This document shows, in pieces, positions 4,285-9,047 of a DNA stretch of 34,865 nt. Source of the stretch: Thermoplasmata archaeon (GTDB taxonomy: Archaea > Thermoplasmatota > Thermoplasmata > Lutacidiplasmatales > UBA184); NCBI GenBank assembly GCA_030037875.1, contig JASHPV010000093.1:1-34865 (forward strand). Reading direction: 5' to 3'. The translations under genes and the position numbers were made by a program. Positions within the stretch are counted from its first letter, which is position 1, and every line of letters begins with the position of its first letter. Under the pieces are notes generated by a model. The model had not been told where the DNA came from. It was given only the letters and a program-made list of their open reading frames with translations, and searched no databases.

Positions 4285-5677
4285 CGTGCGCCCCCCGATC
4301 CGATAGGTAAGTTAGGAGGTCATGGCGGGTGAGGAGCCCCAGTACCTGGCCACTCTTCGGGTCCCGTACCAAGAGGGCCCGGACCTCCTTGAGTCTCCGA
4401 AGGACCTCGCCAATCGGCTCCTCCTCCAGCACCTCCGGAAAGGTGGGTCCCATGACCGCCGTGACGGTCCGTTCGAGAACGGTCTGGTCGAGGAGGACGG
4501 CGCGCAGGATCTCCTCCTCCACGACGCTGCCCACGTTCTCCTTTCCCGCAAGTACGGGAAGCTGCGAGATGGAGTGCCGCTGGAGCAGGCCGAGGGCATC
4601 GCGCACGAGCGTCGTGGGGTCCGCGGCGACGAGCGCCGGTGCGACGTCCTTCCCCCGGACGAGGTCGCCCGCGGTCGCCCCCTCGTCCAGGAATCGGTTC
4701 TCCCTCATCCATTCGTCGGAGTAGAACTTCGATAGGTACCGGTCCCCCGAATCGGGCAACACCACCACGATGGTGGAGCCTTCGGGCACCGGACGTCGGG
4801 CCAGCCACTTGAGGGCGCCGGCCACCGCCGAGCCGGAGGAACCCCCGACGAAGAGCCCCTCCTCCCGAGCCAACCGGCGCGCCATCAGGAACGACTCCTT
4901 GTCGTCGACCTGGACGAACTCGTCCATCGCCTTGAAATCCACCGTCTTGGGAATCATGTCCTCCCCGATGCCTTCCACCTTGTACGGGGTAACGCGAATC
5001 GTTTCGTGCGTCTCGAAGTAGTGCTGCAGGATCGACCCCTTGGGATCGACCGCGATGATTTTGACCGAGGGCCGGTGGTCCTTGAAGTACCGTCCGATCC
5101 CGCTCACCGTCCCCCCGGTCCCGATGGTGGCGACGACGGCGGTCAGGGCGTCGCCGGCGCCGCGATCGATCTCGGGAGCGGTGCCCCGGTAGTGAGCGCC
5201 CGGGTTCTCGGGATTTTCATACTGGTTGGGATAGTAGGAGTTCGGGATCTCCTTCGCAAGGCGCTTCGCGACGGAGTAGTGGCTCATCGGGTGGTCGGGA
5301 GGAAGCTGGCTGGGAGTGATGACCACGCGCGCCCCGAACGCTCGGAGTAGTCGGATCTTCTCCGAGCTCATCTTATCCGGGATCACGAAGACCGCATGAT
5401 ACCCACGGACCGCGGCGACCAGCGCGAGGCCGACACCCGTGTTCCCGCTGGTGGCCTCGATGATAGTCCCTCCGGGTTTCAGCCATCCCTGCTTCTCCGC
5501 GGCATCGATCATCGTGGGACCGATCCGGTCCTTCACCGAGCCGCCCGGGTTGAGGTACTCGAGTTTGGCCAGTACACGGTACGGGTACCCCCGGGCCACC
5601 CGATTCAACGGGATGAGCGGGGTGCGACCGATCAGGTCGAGTATCGACCCGGGCTCAGAGGGCGGAGAAGCTCCCAC
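4274..5677 (-). CDS. Cystathionine beta-synthase with C-terminal CBS domain pair
   Basis: About 467 residues. The N-terminal PLP-II fold domain carries ILDLIGRTPLIPL, the PLP lysine Lys49 in NPGGSVKDRIG, the substrate loop ATSGNTG and the phosphate loop GTGGTVSGIG. Two CBS domains fill roughly the last 120 residues (VRDALGLLQRHSISQLPVL and a second copy near LTRHDLLTYLS), which usually bind adenosyl ligands and regulate activity. It condenses serine and homocysteine to cystathionine, though O-acetylserine sulfhydrylase activity cannot be excluded. I chose the GTG at 5677 because it sits about 10 residues before the conserved start of the fold and about 44 nt below a TATA-like element; an in-frame start at 5779 would place that promoter inside the gene. 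Confidence 0.85.
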   Translation of the reverse strand: MGASPPSEPGSILDLIGRTPLIPLNRVARGYPYRVLAKLEYLNPGGSVKDRIGPTMIDAAEKQGWLKPGGTIIEATSGNTGVGLALVAAVRGYHAVFVIPDKMSSEKIRLLRAFGARVVITPSQLPPDHPMSHYSVAKRLAKEIPNSYYPNQYENPENPGAHYRGTAPEIDRGAGDALTAVVATIGTGGTVSGIGRYFKDHRPSVKIIAVDPKGSILQHYFETHETIRVTPYKVEGIGEDMIPKTVDFKAMDEFVQVDDKESFLMARRLAREEGLFVGGSSGSAVAGALKWLARRPVPEGSTIVVVLPDSGDRYLSKFYSDEWMRENRFLDEGATAGDLVRGKDVAPALVAADPTTLVRDALGLLQRHSISQLPVLAGKENVGSVVEEEILRAVLLDQTVLERTVTAVMGPTFPEVLEEEPIGEVLRRLKEVRALLVRDPKSGQVLGLLTRHDLLTYLSDRGAHGAA

Positions 5678-5713
5678 GAGCCGGCCAGAAGCGGATTCCC
5701 CATTAACGCTACT

Positions 5714-5729
5714 GCCGCTTATTAGCGGC
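5714..5729 (-). promoter_or_regulatory. TATA element inside a perfect palindrome upstream of the Cys cluster
   Basis: The plus strand reads GCCGCTTATTAGCGGC: 6-bp perfect arms around TATT. The AT-rich centre lies about 44 nt upstream of the chosen beta-synthase start, which suits a TATA box with a roughly 17-nt leader. GC-rich arms flanking the TATA core could be an operator; that role is inference. Confidence 0.5.
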
Positions 5730-5774
5730 GAGAATCTACCCCCCTCCCGGAATGGAGCGGACGGTAGCGTTCGT

Positions 5775-5800
5775 ACCATTCGAACGGGTAATGGTTAAGG
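5775..5800 (+). promoter_or_regulatory. Inverted repeat and TATA-like element before the BlaI-like gene
   Basis: ACCATT (5775-5780) and AATGGT (5790-5795) form an inverted repeat with a 9-bp spacer. It abuts a weak TATA-like GGTTAAGG (5793-5800) about 38 nt upstream of the TTG start. A GGAG ribosome binding site lies at 5824-5827. The repeat is a candidate autoregulatory operator for the BlaI-like protein. Confidence 0.4.
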
Positions 5801-5833
5801 CACCCCCCCGTCCCAAATTGGTCGGAGATTCGC

Positions 5834-6196
5834 TTGCTTGGTGCACTCGAAACGAAGGTTCTGGCCTCCCTGCGGGAGCTCGAGGAGGCCCCGGCGGCCC
5901 GTGTGAGGGCCGACCTGCTGAGGCGCGGCACCCGGGTGGCCTACACCACGGTGGCCACCATACTGAGCCGCCTCTGGGGCAAGGGCCTAGTCCGCCGTCG
6001 ACGCGAAGCCTGTCGCGGGGGGGAACGCTACGTGTACCGGTACGCGCCCAATCTCGAGCACCGGTATCTGAGCGACCTCGTGAAGGGCGTGGTCCGCATG
6101 TTCGGTCCCGCGGGGGTGGTCCACCTCAACGAGGAGATCTCCAAGCTGCACCCGACCGAGGACCGGGAGCTCCGTCGGCGCCTCGGATTCGACTAG
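5834..6196 (+). CDS. BlaI/MecI/CopY-family winged-helix repressor
   Basis: A 120-residue protein matching the BlaI/MecI (penicillinase repressor) winged-helix layout: LGALETKVLASLREL as first helix, TRVAYTTVATILSRLWGKGLV as the recognition region (compare the typical 'ayTTVaTiLsRL..KGlv'), then RRREACRGGERYVYRYAP as the wing, and a C-terminal helical dimerisation tail. The TTG start is supported by GGAG six bases upstream. The next gene, 13 bases downstream, encodes a BlaR1-like membrane metalloprotease, so the pair probably forms a signal-triggered derepression switch. The ligand is unlikely to be a beta-lactam, because the partner has no visible penicillin-binding sensor domain. Confidence 0.8.
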   Translation: MLGALETKVLASLRELEEAPAARVRADLLRRGTRVAYTTVATILSRLWGKGLVRRRREACRGGERYVYRYAPNLEHRYLSDLVKGVVRMFGPAGVVHLNEEISKLHPTEDRELRRRLGFD

Positions 6197-6209
6197 CGCG
6201 AGGCGCCCT

Positions 6210-7112
6210 GTGAGCGCCGCGTCCGGCCTGCTCTACCTTCCCGTCGTGGTATGGATCGCCACGGGCGTCGGGCTGCTCATCGCCTACCGGAAGTCCACCC
6301 CGCGGCTGGTGCTCCGGCTGGCGGCCGGATTTCTGGCGTTGTGGGCCGTGCTCGCCACCACGGTCCTGGCATGGGTTCTCTTGAACGGTGGGGTCGACGG
6401 AGTGGTGACGCTCCTCCACTCGCCGCTGCTCCTATTCCAAAGCCGGTGGATGCTCGTGTGGCTCACCGGAGCCGTGGGGGCTCTCGCTGTCCTCACGGTG
6501 GCCTTCTGCCTCAACCAGGTCGTGGGCCATGGGCTCTTGAGGGTGCTCGCCACCGACCCGGTTCCTTGGCCGGCCGCCTTACCCACGCCGGAGCGCCCCA
6601 CGTCCTTGCTCGAGTTCGAATCCCCCGCGGCGGAAGCGTTCTCGTTCACCCTGGTCGGGCTGGGTCTCAACGAAGGCCGCCTGCCCTTTCGCCGCGACGT
6701 GATCCTCGTCTCTCGACGCCTCCGAGCGCTGCTCGTCGGGAAGGAGTTTGAAGCGGTCGTCGCCCACGAGCTGGGTCATATCCGCGGCCTCGACTCCCGG
6801 TACCTCACTTTCCTTCGGACCTTCGCCCACATGATGCGGTGGGACCCTCTGCTGGCCTACCTTGCGCGCAGCCTCACGACGCGGGAGGAGTACCGGGCCG
6901 ACCTGGATGCCGCTCGGATCACCCATCAACCCCTCGCGCTGGCCCGGGCGCTGTACAAGGCCGTCACGACAGCCGACCTAGTTCCCGCTCGGCCGTTCCC
7001 GGCGCTGTTGGGCGCGACCGGCCGTCACGGCCGAAGCGAAGCCTACGAGAGGATTCGACGGCTCGTGGCACTGGCCGAATCCGGCGCGTTCGAGGGGGGG
7101 TCGATTGTCTGA
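6210..7112 (+). CDS. BlaR1-like integral membrane M48/M56 metalloprotease
   Basis: About 300 residues. Three hydrophobic segments occur at about 5-25, 33-58 and 82-101. The cytoplasmic protease region has the zinc motif HELGH at 186-190 and a downstream glutamate motif EEYRADLDAA at 226-235, the HExxH...E..AD arrangement of gluzincin M48/M56 peptidases. Bacterial BlaR1/MecR1 proteases activate in response to a signal and lead to loss of BlaI; the adjacent BlaI-like gene suggests the same logic. No extracellular sensor domain is attached. The following surface-protein gene overlaps its 3' end by 8 bp and may supply the sensing part or be the regulated output. Start: GTG at 6210. Confidence 0.8.
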   Translation: MSAASGLLYLPVVVWIATGVGLLIAYRKSTPRLVLRLAAGFLALWAVLATTVLAWVLLNGGVDGVVTLLHSPLLLFQSRWMLVWLTGAVGALAVLTVAFCLNQVVGHGLLRVLATDPVPWPAALPTPERPTSLLEFESPAAEAFSFTLVGLGLNEGRLPFRRDVILVSRRLRALLVGKEFEAVVAHELGHIRGLDSRYLTFLRTFAHMMRWDPLLAYLARSLTTREEYRADLDAARITHQPLALARALYKAVTTADLVPARPFPALLGATGRHGRSEAYERIRRLVALAESGAFEGGSIV

Positions 7113-7908
7113 GCGGCGGGTGACCCGCCGAGGTCGCCGGACCTGGATCGCTGTGGCCGTCGTTGCGGCCGGAATTCTGCTCGTCCTTCCGGTGATCGGG
7201 ACCCCGGCGGCCGCCGCGTACCCTGTGCTCCCGGACCGGGACTGGAGCCCCATCCTGGGCGCTCTCGGGGGCCCCACCCTCACACCGGGAGGCGCCGGCT
7301 CGGTGACGTTCCGCCTGGAGAACCCCTTGCCAGACCCGCTTGTCGGGACCCGGGTCTCCCTCCAGGTGTACGCGTTCAACCCGACGAACGGGGGCGCCGT
7401 TCAATCTCCTCCCGCCGGCTCGGCGCCCACGTTTCCCGGCGGAACGCTCGGCGACAACGCCACCCCGCCCGCCGAGCTTCCGTTCGGCACGAGCTGGAAC
7501 GAGAGCCTGCCGGTCACCGTACCGTCCACCGCACCCACCGGGGACTACGCGGTCCGCTTCTCGGTGACCTTTTCGATGAACAACACGAGCTACCTCCTCG
7601 AGTCGAGAGGGTTCTTCTCGGCCACGGCGTGGGCCCGGGCGACGGAGTATCCGAACGGGACCCCCACGATCAACGCGAGCGAGCTGGGCGTCTCGGGGGT
7701 CGTCCCCGAGACCTCCATCCTCGTGAGCCCCTCGTCCACGCCGGCGGTCCTGTACGTGGTGCTGGGCGTCGGACTCGCGTTCGCGGCGCTGGGGGCTTAC
7801 TGGTGGGCCCGGTCCGAAACGAAATCCAGGTCGGGCGCTCGCCGGCCTTCTCCGCCCCAGAGCGCCCCCACGGCCTTCGGAAGCAAGCGGAGTAACGATG
7901 GCGACTGA
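7105..7908 (+). CDS. Surface protein with N-terminal signal and C-terminal membrane anchor
   Basis: A 267-residue protein. A positively charged N-terminus (SERRVTRRGRR) precedes a signal/TM segment at about 13-38. Residues 40-205 form a Gly/Pro/Thr-rich extracellular region with several N-x-S/T sites; GSVTFRLENPLPDPLVGTRVSLQVYAF resembles an immunoglobulin-like or NEW3-type beta domain. A second TM segment (AVLYVVLGVGLAFAALGAYWWA) and a basic tail follow. The TTG start overlaps the protease stop by 8 bp and has a G-rich ribosome site (gaggggggg). It may be the sensor or target of the BlaI/BlaR1-like pair; that is inference. Its last 112 bp overlap the convergent geranylgeranyl reductase gene. 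Confidence 0.7.
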   Translation: MSERRVTRRGRRTWIAVAVVAAGILLVLPVIGTPAAAAYPVLPDRDWSPILGALGGPTLTPGGAGSVTFRLENPLPDPLVGTRVSLQVYAFNPTNGGAVQSPPAGSAPTFPGGTLGDNATPPAELPFGTSWNESLPVTVPSTAPTGDYAVRFSVTFSMNNTSYLLESRGFFSATAWARATEYPNGTPTINASELGVSGVVPETSILVSPSSTPAVLYVVLGVGLAFAALGAYWWARSETKSRSGARRPSPPQSAPTAFGSKRSNDGD

Positions 7909-9047
7909 CGGAGCAACCGGCGCACGACGTGCGTCGGAAAGTCGATGTCCCCGAACGCCACGATCGTCTCCGTCGTGCCGGATTCCTTGAGCGCCTCCAG
8001 AATGGCCTCGAGCTCCGTGTCGGAGAACTTGAGAAACAGCCGGCGGAGGTACTGCGCCTTGTCGAACTCCTCGCCGAACTCCCGGCGCCAGGACTCGTCG
8101 TATCGCGAGAGCCGGGCCGCCGACAGGTCGTCATCGACCAGGGCCTCGTGCACCACGTCGACCGCGAGTTCCGCGGCCCGCATCCCCGTGTAGATCCCTC
8201 CGCCCGAGAGCGGTTTCGCCTGCGCTGCGGCATCGCCCACGAGGACGATGCGCGGGCCGGAAATGTTCGGAACGGTACCGATCGGAATTCCCGAAACGAG
8301 ATAGCCCGTGGGGTTCCGAAGGGGCTGGCCGAACCGCCGGCCGATCTGGGCGACGAGATGCTCGTAGTACACGCGGGCGGGCGTGCCGTCGGCGTTGGAC
8401 GCGACGCCGACACGAGCTCCGCCGGCGCCGTCCGGGATCCACCAGCCGAAGAGGCCTGGAGAGATCGTGTTGCCGACATAGACCTCGACGAGGTCCGGGT
8501 CTCCCGGTGACTGGGGAAATTCCGCCTCGAATGCCGGCAGGATCTCGACGGGCCGTCGGAGCCGGAAGGCCCGGGCCACGGCGCTCGCCACCCCGTCCGC
8601 GCCGACCACGATTCTCGCTTCGATCTCGCCGGGACGGTTCCCGTGGCGGGTGACCTTGGCGCGGACGCTCCCGTTCGGCGGTCCCACAAGGCCGTCGAAC
8701 CGGGTCTCGGTCTCGAACGCGGCCCCCGCGTTGGCCGCTCGGTCGGCCAAGGCGATGTCCAGACCGGCTCGGTCGATGACGAAGGCCCTTGGCTCGGGCG
8801 CTCGGAAGGAGAGGGATTTCAATTGGGGGCTGAACACGGTCGCGCCGTGTACCGGCCGACGGACGACCTGAGGAGCCTTCGCCAGGTCGAGCACTCGACG
8901 GGAAACGAGGCCGGCACACTGGACCGGATACCCGACTCGTCCGTGCTCTTCGATGACCAGGACGGAATGACCGTGTCGAGCGAGCCGTTCGGCGGCAGTG
9001 GAGCCGGCGGGCCCCGCCCCGACCACCAGGACATCGACCGCCGTCAC
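7797..9047 (-). CDS. Geranylgeranyl reductase family FAD enzyme
   Basis: A 416-residue FAD-dependent oxidoreductase. The N-terminus has the dinucleotide motif VLVVGAGPAGSTAAERLA, then the GGR-family active-site block GYPVQCAGLVS. Later come GLFGWWIPDG (the family's Y/F-x-W-x-F/I-P site) and the second FAD motif IVLVGDAAAQAKPLSGGGIYTGM. Family members saturate geranylgeranyl chains of archaeal ether lipids; some act on other isoprenoids or are electron-transfer homologues. The GTG start lies nine bases after the kae1 stop, so it is probably co-transcribed with kae1. Confidence 0.9.
   Translation of the reverse strand: MTAVDVLVVGAGPAGSTAAERLARHGHSVLVIEEHGRVGYPVQCAGLVSRRVLDLAKAPQVVRRPVHGATVFSPQLKSLSFRAPEPRAFVIDRAGLDIALADRAANAGAAFETETRFDGLVGPPNGSVRAKVTRHGNRPGEIEARIVVGADGVASAVARAFRLRRPVEILPAFEAEFPQSPGDPDLVEVYVGNTISPGLFGWWIPDGAGGARVGVASNADGTPARVYYEHLVAQIGRRFGQPLRNPTGYLVSGIPIGTVPNISGPRIVLVGDAAAQAKPLSGGGIYTGMRAAELAVDVVHEALVDDDLSAARLSRYDESWRREFGEEFDKAQYLRRLFLKFSDTELEAILEALKESGTTETIVAFGDIDFPTHVVRRLLRQSPSLLRLLPKAVGALWGGEGRRAPDLDFVSDRAHQ

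Follow-up and report, generated by a model that had tools for sequence, protein, structure and literature searches.

BlaI/BlaR-type switches have been studied almost only as regulators of antibiotic resistance. The closest described systems are the staphylococcal and Bacillus BlaI–BlaR1 and MecI–MecR1 pairs, in which a repressor is encoded beside a membrane gluzincin protease that carries a fourth transmembrane (TM) helix, TM4, and a penicillin-binding ectodomain. BlaR1 cleaves BlaI directly, at Asn101-Phe102, has H201 and E242 as the His and Glu of its HExxH...ExxxD signature, and in its own fold is closest to ZMPSTE24/Ste24 (PMC9834060). In Mycobacterium tuberculosis, BlaI (Rv1846c) is accompanied by a sensorless BlaR (Rv1845c) and controls blaC, ATP synthase and other genes (PMC5473688). 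Our literature search, which missed most subscription papers, found no description of an archaeal BlaI–M56 pair.

The locus described here belongs to archaea that have no peptidoglycan wall. It lies on a contig of 34,865 bases, analysed over its whole length (the window), within a 1.77-Mb draft Thermoplasmata genome whose relatives include named Thermoplasmata archaeon MAGs. The repressor and protease families and the sensorless BlaR are known; what is new is their presence in an archaeal lineage without peptidoglycan and the wiring to a phylum-wide envelope protein, called Surf below. The features of the locus are as follows.

5759-5786, forward strand: candidate BlaI operator, GGACGGTAGCGTTCGTAC (5759-5776) overlapping the palindrome CGTTCG-TACCATT-CGAACG (5768-5786), the form that the family-wide GtACGaACcgGTtCGTaC takes in this genus
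5775-5795, forward strand: exact inverted repeat ACCATT-CGAACGGGT-AATGGT (N9) noted in the sequence-only reading
5790-5800, forward strand: probable promoter of BRE/TATA type, AATGGTTAAGG, some 40 nt ahead of the start codon
5834-6196, forward strand: BlaI/MecI-type winged-helix repressor, 120 aa, TTG start, matching PF03965
6210-7112, forward strand: membrane zinc protease of the M56/M48 gluzincin type, 300 aa, with three TM helices, HELGH and E227xxxD231
7105-7908, forward strand: surface protein Surf, with signal peptide, Ig-like ectodomain, TM helix and short tail
7105-7112, forward strand: 8-nt overlap of the protease stop (TGA) and the Surf start (TTG), with an SD-like purine-rich stretch directly upstream
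7797-7908, both strands: 112-bp tail-to-tail overlap of Surf (forward) and the geranylgeranyl-reductase-like gene (reverse)
7797-9047, reverse strand: geranylgeranyl-reductase-like gene (GGR), convergent with Surf

The three open reading frames announced by the sequence-only reading, for a repressor, an HELGH protease without a penicillin-binding domain and a surface protein, are all found where it had placed them, and its remark that they overlap or nearly touch is borne out by a 13-nt gap between BlaI and the protease and the 8-nt overlap between the protease and Surf. The window BlaI is a member of PF03965 (Penicillinase_R), matching over its whole length (residues 2-117, E=1.8e-11, 44.8 bits against a cut-off of 22.6), so that the profile match covers both the winged helix and the C-terminal dimerisation region; all 23 orthologues match the same profile. 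Its TTG start is supported by the ATG, GTG or TTG that relatives have at the same codon, and it is the sole PF03965 gene found in the draft genome. Its PDB matches are 2g9w (the best), which we take to be M. tuberculosis Rv1846c (BlaI), and MecI.

Across 24 orthologues of the protease, HELGH (186-190) and E227xxxD231 show no or almost no variation. An HMM alignment with S. aureus BlaR1 (8exp) is gapless from before HExxH to ExxxD, and the 41 residues between H186 and E227 equal the His-Glu spacing of BlaR1, which gives the protein a BlaR1-type gluzincin signature. Three helices of TM length are present in its structural model (pLDDT 83), the protein ends about 70 residues past E227, and TM4 and the extracellular penicillin-binding sensor domain are absent. 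The predicted topology is N-out with the zinc site inside, which the positive residues between TM1 and TM2 fit. The archaeal system resembles BlaI–BlaR1 and MecI–MecR1 in having a repressor beside a membrane gluzincin protease with the same HExxH...ExxxD spacing, a predicted N-out TM bundle with a cytoplasmic active site, and a palindrome at the promoter. In contrast, it has no TM4, penicillin-binding ectodomain or beta-lactamase, its host has no peptidoglycan, and a surface-protein gene is coupled downstream. Unlike a bla/mec divergon, the locus has no beta-lactamase or PBP2a genes adjoining it, its neighbours being cysteine synthase-CBS, Surf and the reductase. The mycobacterial pair is similar in its sensorless BlaR, and differs from the archaeal operon in being bacterial and in the genes that its BlaI controls (PMC5473688).

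The family assignment of the protease bears on a different reading, in which its substrate would be Surf or other membrane proteins, as in HtpX/Ste24-like quality control, with BlaI merely setting the level of the operon. The window protein resembles HtpX/Ste24 (M48) in catalytic motif and fold: it scores above the curated cut-off of PF01435 (Peptidase_M48) and below that of PF05569 (M56; E=8e-5, 22.4 bits against 31), the best M48 E-value among the 24 orthologues beats that for M56, and the top Foldseek matches of the model are ZMPSTE24/Ste24, followed by BlaR1. However, BlaR1 itself shares this closest fold (PMC9834060), the His-Glu spacing is identical to that of BlaR1, and several further families also have such a protease paired with BlaI, so we regard quality control as quite improbable. 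Two orthologues (G010 and G006) pass the PF05569 cut-off, and the window protease stays far below the NCBIfam HtpX equivalog cut-off (29.7 bits against 422). A recent bacterial origin of the protease was rejected: the bacterial matches are weak, of M48 type (27-53% over short stretches), and, unlike the window protease, they adjoin other genes, such as LemA-like ones, with no BlaI-like neighbour detected. No plasmid relatives were found.

Protease orthologues were searched for in 61 related genomes, and strong ones turned up in four genera (g1, g2, g5 and g6) of the Thermoplasmata family to which the window belongs. All 24 loci examined from these genera have the order BlaI-M56-Surf on one strand, and named Thermoplasmata MAGs show it too. 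This answers the call of the sequence-only reading to look for the three-gene order in relatives: Surf adjoins the pair in 24/24 loci, with an IS607-like element intervening in one of them. BlaI and the protease are 6 to 30 nt apart, and the Surf start lies exactly 8 nt inside the protease gene, preceded by an SD-like purine-rich sequence, in 18 of the 24 loci, across diverged genera. This recurrent overlap makes it very likely that the three genes form one translationally coupled operon. Shared neighbourhood by itself is weak evidence, because the whole block CysS-CGS-CysK...GGR-Kae1-TGT is syntenic throughout the family loci. The junctions within the triad are broken in 1/24 loci, whereas the GGR-Kae1 junction has more than 1 kb inserted in 9/19.

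The interrupted locus (L038 of G032, about 5570-7440) is a natural break of the translational coupling: an IS607-like element, identified by eye as a MerR-type/serine resolvase plus a TnpB-like protein, splits the protease from Surf and leaves all triad genes intact. The close relative G027 has no interruption at this point.

The reading that we hold to be somewhat better than an even chance is that of a BlaI/BlaR-like switch, based on regulated proteolysis, which governs the three-gene operon that encodes it and has Surf as its main output. At the sequence level it is supported by the gene order, the start/stop coupling, the catalytic signature, a shared conserved upstream element, a single genomic site and the wide occurrence of Surf in genomes that lack the pair. 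BlaI dimers would bind a palindrome that lies directly ahead of the BRE/TATA region and extends partly into it, thereby holding down transcription of blaI-M56-surf. A signal from the envelope or membrane may be sensed by the protease itself, either with its TM helices or with the external TM2-TM3 loop of about 22 residues, and once activated the cytoplasm-facing zinc site of the enzyme would cut BlaI within the C-terminal dimerisation region; that the archaeal enzyme cleaves BlaI at all we infer by analogy with BlaR1. The derepressed operon would then yield more Surf through translational coupling, reinforcing the envelope if Surf has the envelope role that we presume, and fresh BlaI would reset the switch. 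Equally, Surf could act back on the protease.

The operator on which this reading depends is probably not the one first proposed. The inverted repeat ACCATT-N9-AATGGT of the sequence-only reading is indeed present at 5775-5795, and the 1.77-Mb draft genome has no second perfect copy. A 6-bp repeat with a 9-nt gap is unremarkable by itself, since roughly 8 of any sequence are expected per window (~35,000/4096). It is perfect in 4/5 g1 loci, where the block is nearly identical, and was not found in the other genera, which rules it out as a family operator beyond g1. The right arm, AATGGT, leads directly into TTAAGG, where a TATA-like box stands in most relatives, and a box of the TTAAGG/TTAAAG/TTATGAG type is found at a similar position in nearly all relatives; the arm is thus probably part of a BRE/TATA box.

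Motif discovery on the upstream regions instead yielded a different palindrome, GtACGaACcgGTtCGTaC, family-wide and across genera at about -80 to -60, with scores of 107-128 against 32-39 in shuffles (widths 16-18), values that are inflated by the relatedness of the sequences. When each genus was held out, recovery was modest: the motif was found again in the majority of loci from g5 and g6 and in 3/5 from g1 at p<0.02; g2 gave none. Upstream of Surf it was missing from each of the ten loci examined that have no pair (p>0.3, 10/10). We therefore propose this palindrome, just upstream of the first repeat, as the better operator candidate; its parts in the window are CGTTCGTACC/CGAACG. The genus form, CGTTCGTACNATTCGAACG, has one copy in the genome within 2 mismatches, the next site having 3 mismatches, so the BlaI-M56-Surf operon is probably the only or main target of the switch, although weaker variant sites are conceivable.

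The position of this element is also relevant to the possibility of mere cohabitation, in which BlaI-M56 would act on its own expression or on that of the divergent cysteine synthase, with Surf co-transcribed but not functionally linked. The candidate operator region does lie between the divergent cysteine synthase and BlaI, the surrounding block is syntenic as a whole, and the IS607-like element of G032 parts the protease from Surf without destroying any gene. On the other hand, where CysK has been displaced by kilobases (G010 and G025) the upstream element stays with BlaI, and the exact 8-nt overlap is kept in 18/24 loci over diverged genera. We consider such cohabitation unlikely.

The AlphaFold model of Surf has an N-terminal hydrophobic helix, one high-confidence Ig-like beta-sandwich as ectodomain (about residues 51-167), a juxtamembrane segment and a TM helix (214-237). 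Described as double-anchored in the sequence-only reading, Surf does have the C-terminal anchor, but the conserved AxA-YP junction near the N-terminus marks the other hydrophobic segment as a probable signal peptide, and a type I topology, with a signal peptide and a single C-terminal TM helix, is probable. Sequence searches found no homologues of known structure; a PF10633-like match is weak, and a fold search with the model returned generic Ig-like domains with low query TM-scores. The last ~35 residues are antisense to the neighbouring reductase gene, and earlier stops in relatives suggest that this C-terminal tail is dispensable.

In the sequence-only reading, Surf had been put forward as the missing sensor or as the guarded target. 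In this arrangement the ectodomain would read the state of the envelope and the TM helix would contact the protease, replacing TM4 and the sensor of BlaR1. The tight translational coupling, which favours equal amounts of protease and Surf, is in line with this, as are the conserved juxtamembrane segment plus single TM helix of Surf and the lack of TM4 and ectodomain in the protease, whereas in some other Thermoplasmatota families the M56 partner of BlaI does possess TM4, together with a long loop and a short tail on the outside. The distribution of Surf argues against it. A Surf profile search gave matches in 161/300 genomes of the class and 44/90 genera, mostly in single copy and with E down to about 1e-36 outside the family, and in 24/194 genomes across the phylum, other classes included. 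In three sister genera (g3, g4 and g7; 12 genomes) BlaI was not found and Surf is kept, adjoining the cysteine synthase directly in g3 and g7; in the incomplete genomes G002 and G192 neither was found. The juxtamembrane motif, LGVSGVxPET in the family and VxGIIPDSSFSV-like in others, is conserved class-wide, including genomes that lack the pair, and therefore did not evolve to serve this protease. Conversely, pairs in three other families (f20, f25 and f26) have a 3-TM protease and no Surf alongside. A missing fused sensor does not require a separate one, as the mycobacterial BlaR is also without it (PMC5473688).

Surf is thus far older and more widespread than the BlaI-M56 pairing, and its constant neighbour is the convergent, overlapping reductase gene, an overlap also seen in the sister genera and other families; it was therefore not a component invented for the switch. 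With the switch standing in front of so old and widely conserved a gene, Surf is probably controlled by it and not its sensor. From the proposal of a BlaI/BlaR1-like archaeal switch with a surface gene, the M56-type pair without a penicillin-binding domain and the adjacent Surf stand, but the dedicated sensor does not. We regard Surf as separate sensor or watched client as doubtful overall, the role of guarded target being possible; a split archaeal BlaR, in which an ancient envelope protein of independent evolutionary origin, captured into the operon and coupled to it in translation, serves as a trans sensor whose state or amount the protease reads, we consider rather unlikely. Surf as a fission product of a BlaR1-like protease was ruled out, as its distribution is much broader than that of the pair and its sequence is unrelated.

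In a tree of the neighbouring reductase, pair-bearing g2 groups beside the genera without the pair, which needs two changes; the simplest reading is that the family ancestor gained the pair and one lineage later lost it, a double gain being an admissible alternative. The antisense overlap of Surf with the reductase is unusually stable, being exactly 81 bp including both stops in 12 loci of five other families (L145, L146, L147, L153-L156, L158-L160, L176 and L182; compare 7797-7908 in the window).

The repressor–protease pair is present in several peptidoglycan-free archaeal lineages, one family of which couples it to one conserved, uncharacterised protein of the envelope. This makes it directly testable which stimuli other than beta-lactams such switches respond to, and the phylum-wide Thermoplasmatota surface protein gains a first functional handle. 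Compared with the family studied here, BlaI-M56 pairs of other Thermoplasmatota families have the repressor–protease pairing in common, whereas their locations and palindromes differ. The neighbours, identified by eye, are rpoD-like genes in f25 and cytochrome-oxidase-like (cox-like) genes in f20. The f35, f46 and f62 proteases are longer: they add a fourth TM helix, and outside the membrane they have a large loop and a short tail; this plan (L229-L234) is closer to BlaR1, without a recognisable penicillin-binding domain.

BlaI-like domains also occur outside such pairs. In f23 (L220 2251-2979, L221 4687-5442) one is found in an ORF of ~245 aa followed by an ORF of ~410 aa, with no M56 neighbour, and at L212 6311-6664 (G113 contig 110) lies a BlaI closely resembling the f1 type (E about 1e-34) with no protease alongside, a possible orphan regulator. 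The f20 BlaI is preceded by TACATATGTA, which fits TACANNTGTA, the operator of the related CopY family (PMC7253601). In f25 (L213, L214, L216, L217 and L211), where the pair lies downstream of the rpoD-like gene, a strong palindrome, GATTACTAT-n4-ATAGTAATC, is found at the TATA region and start codon.
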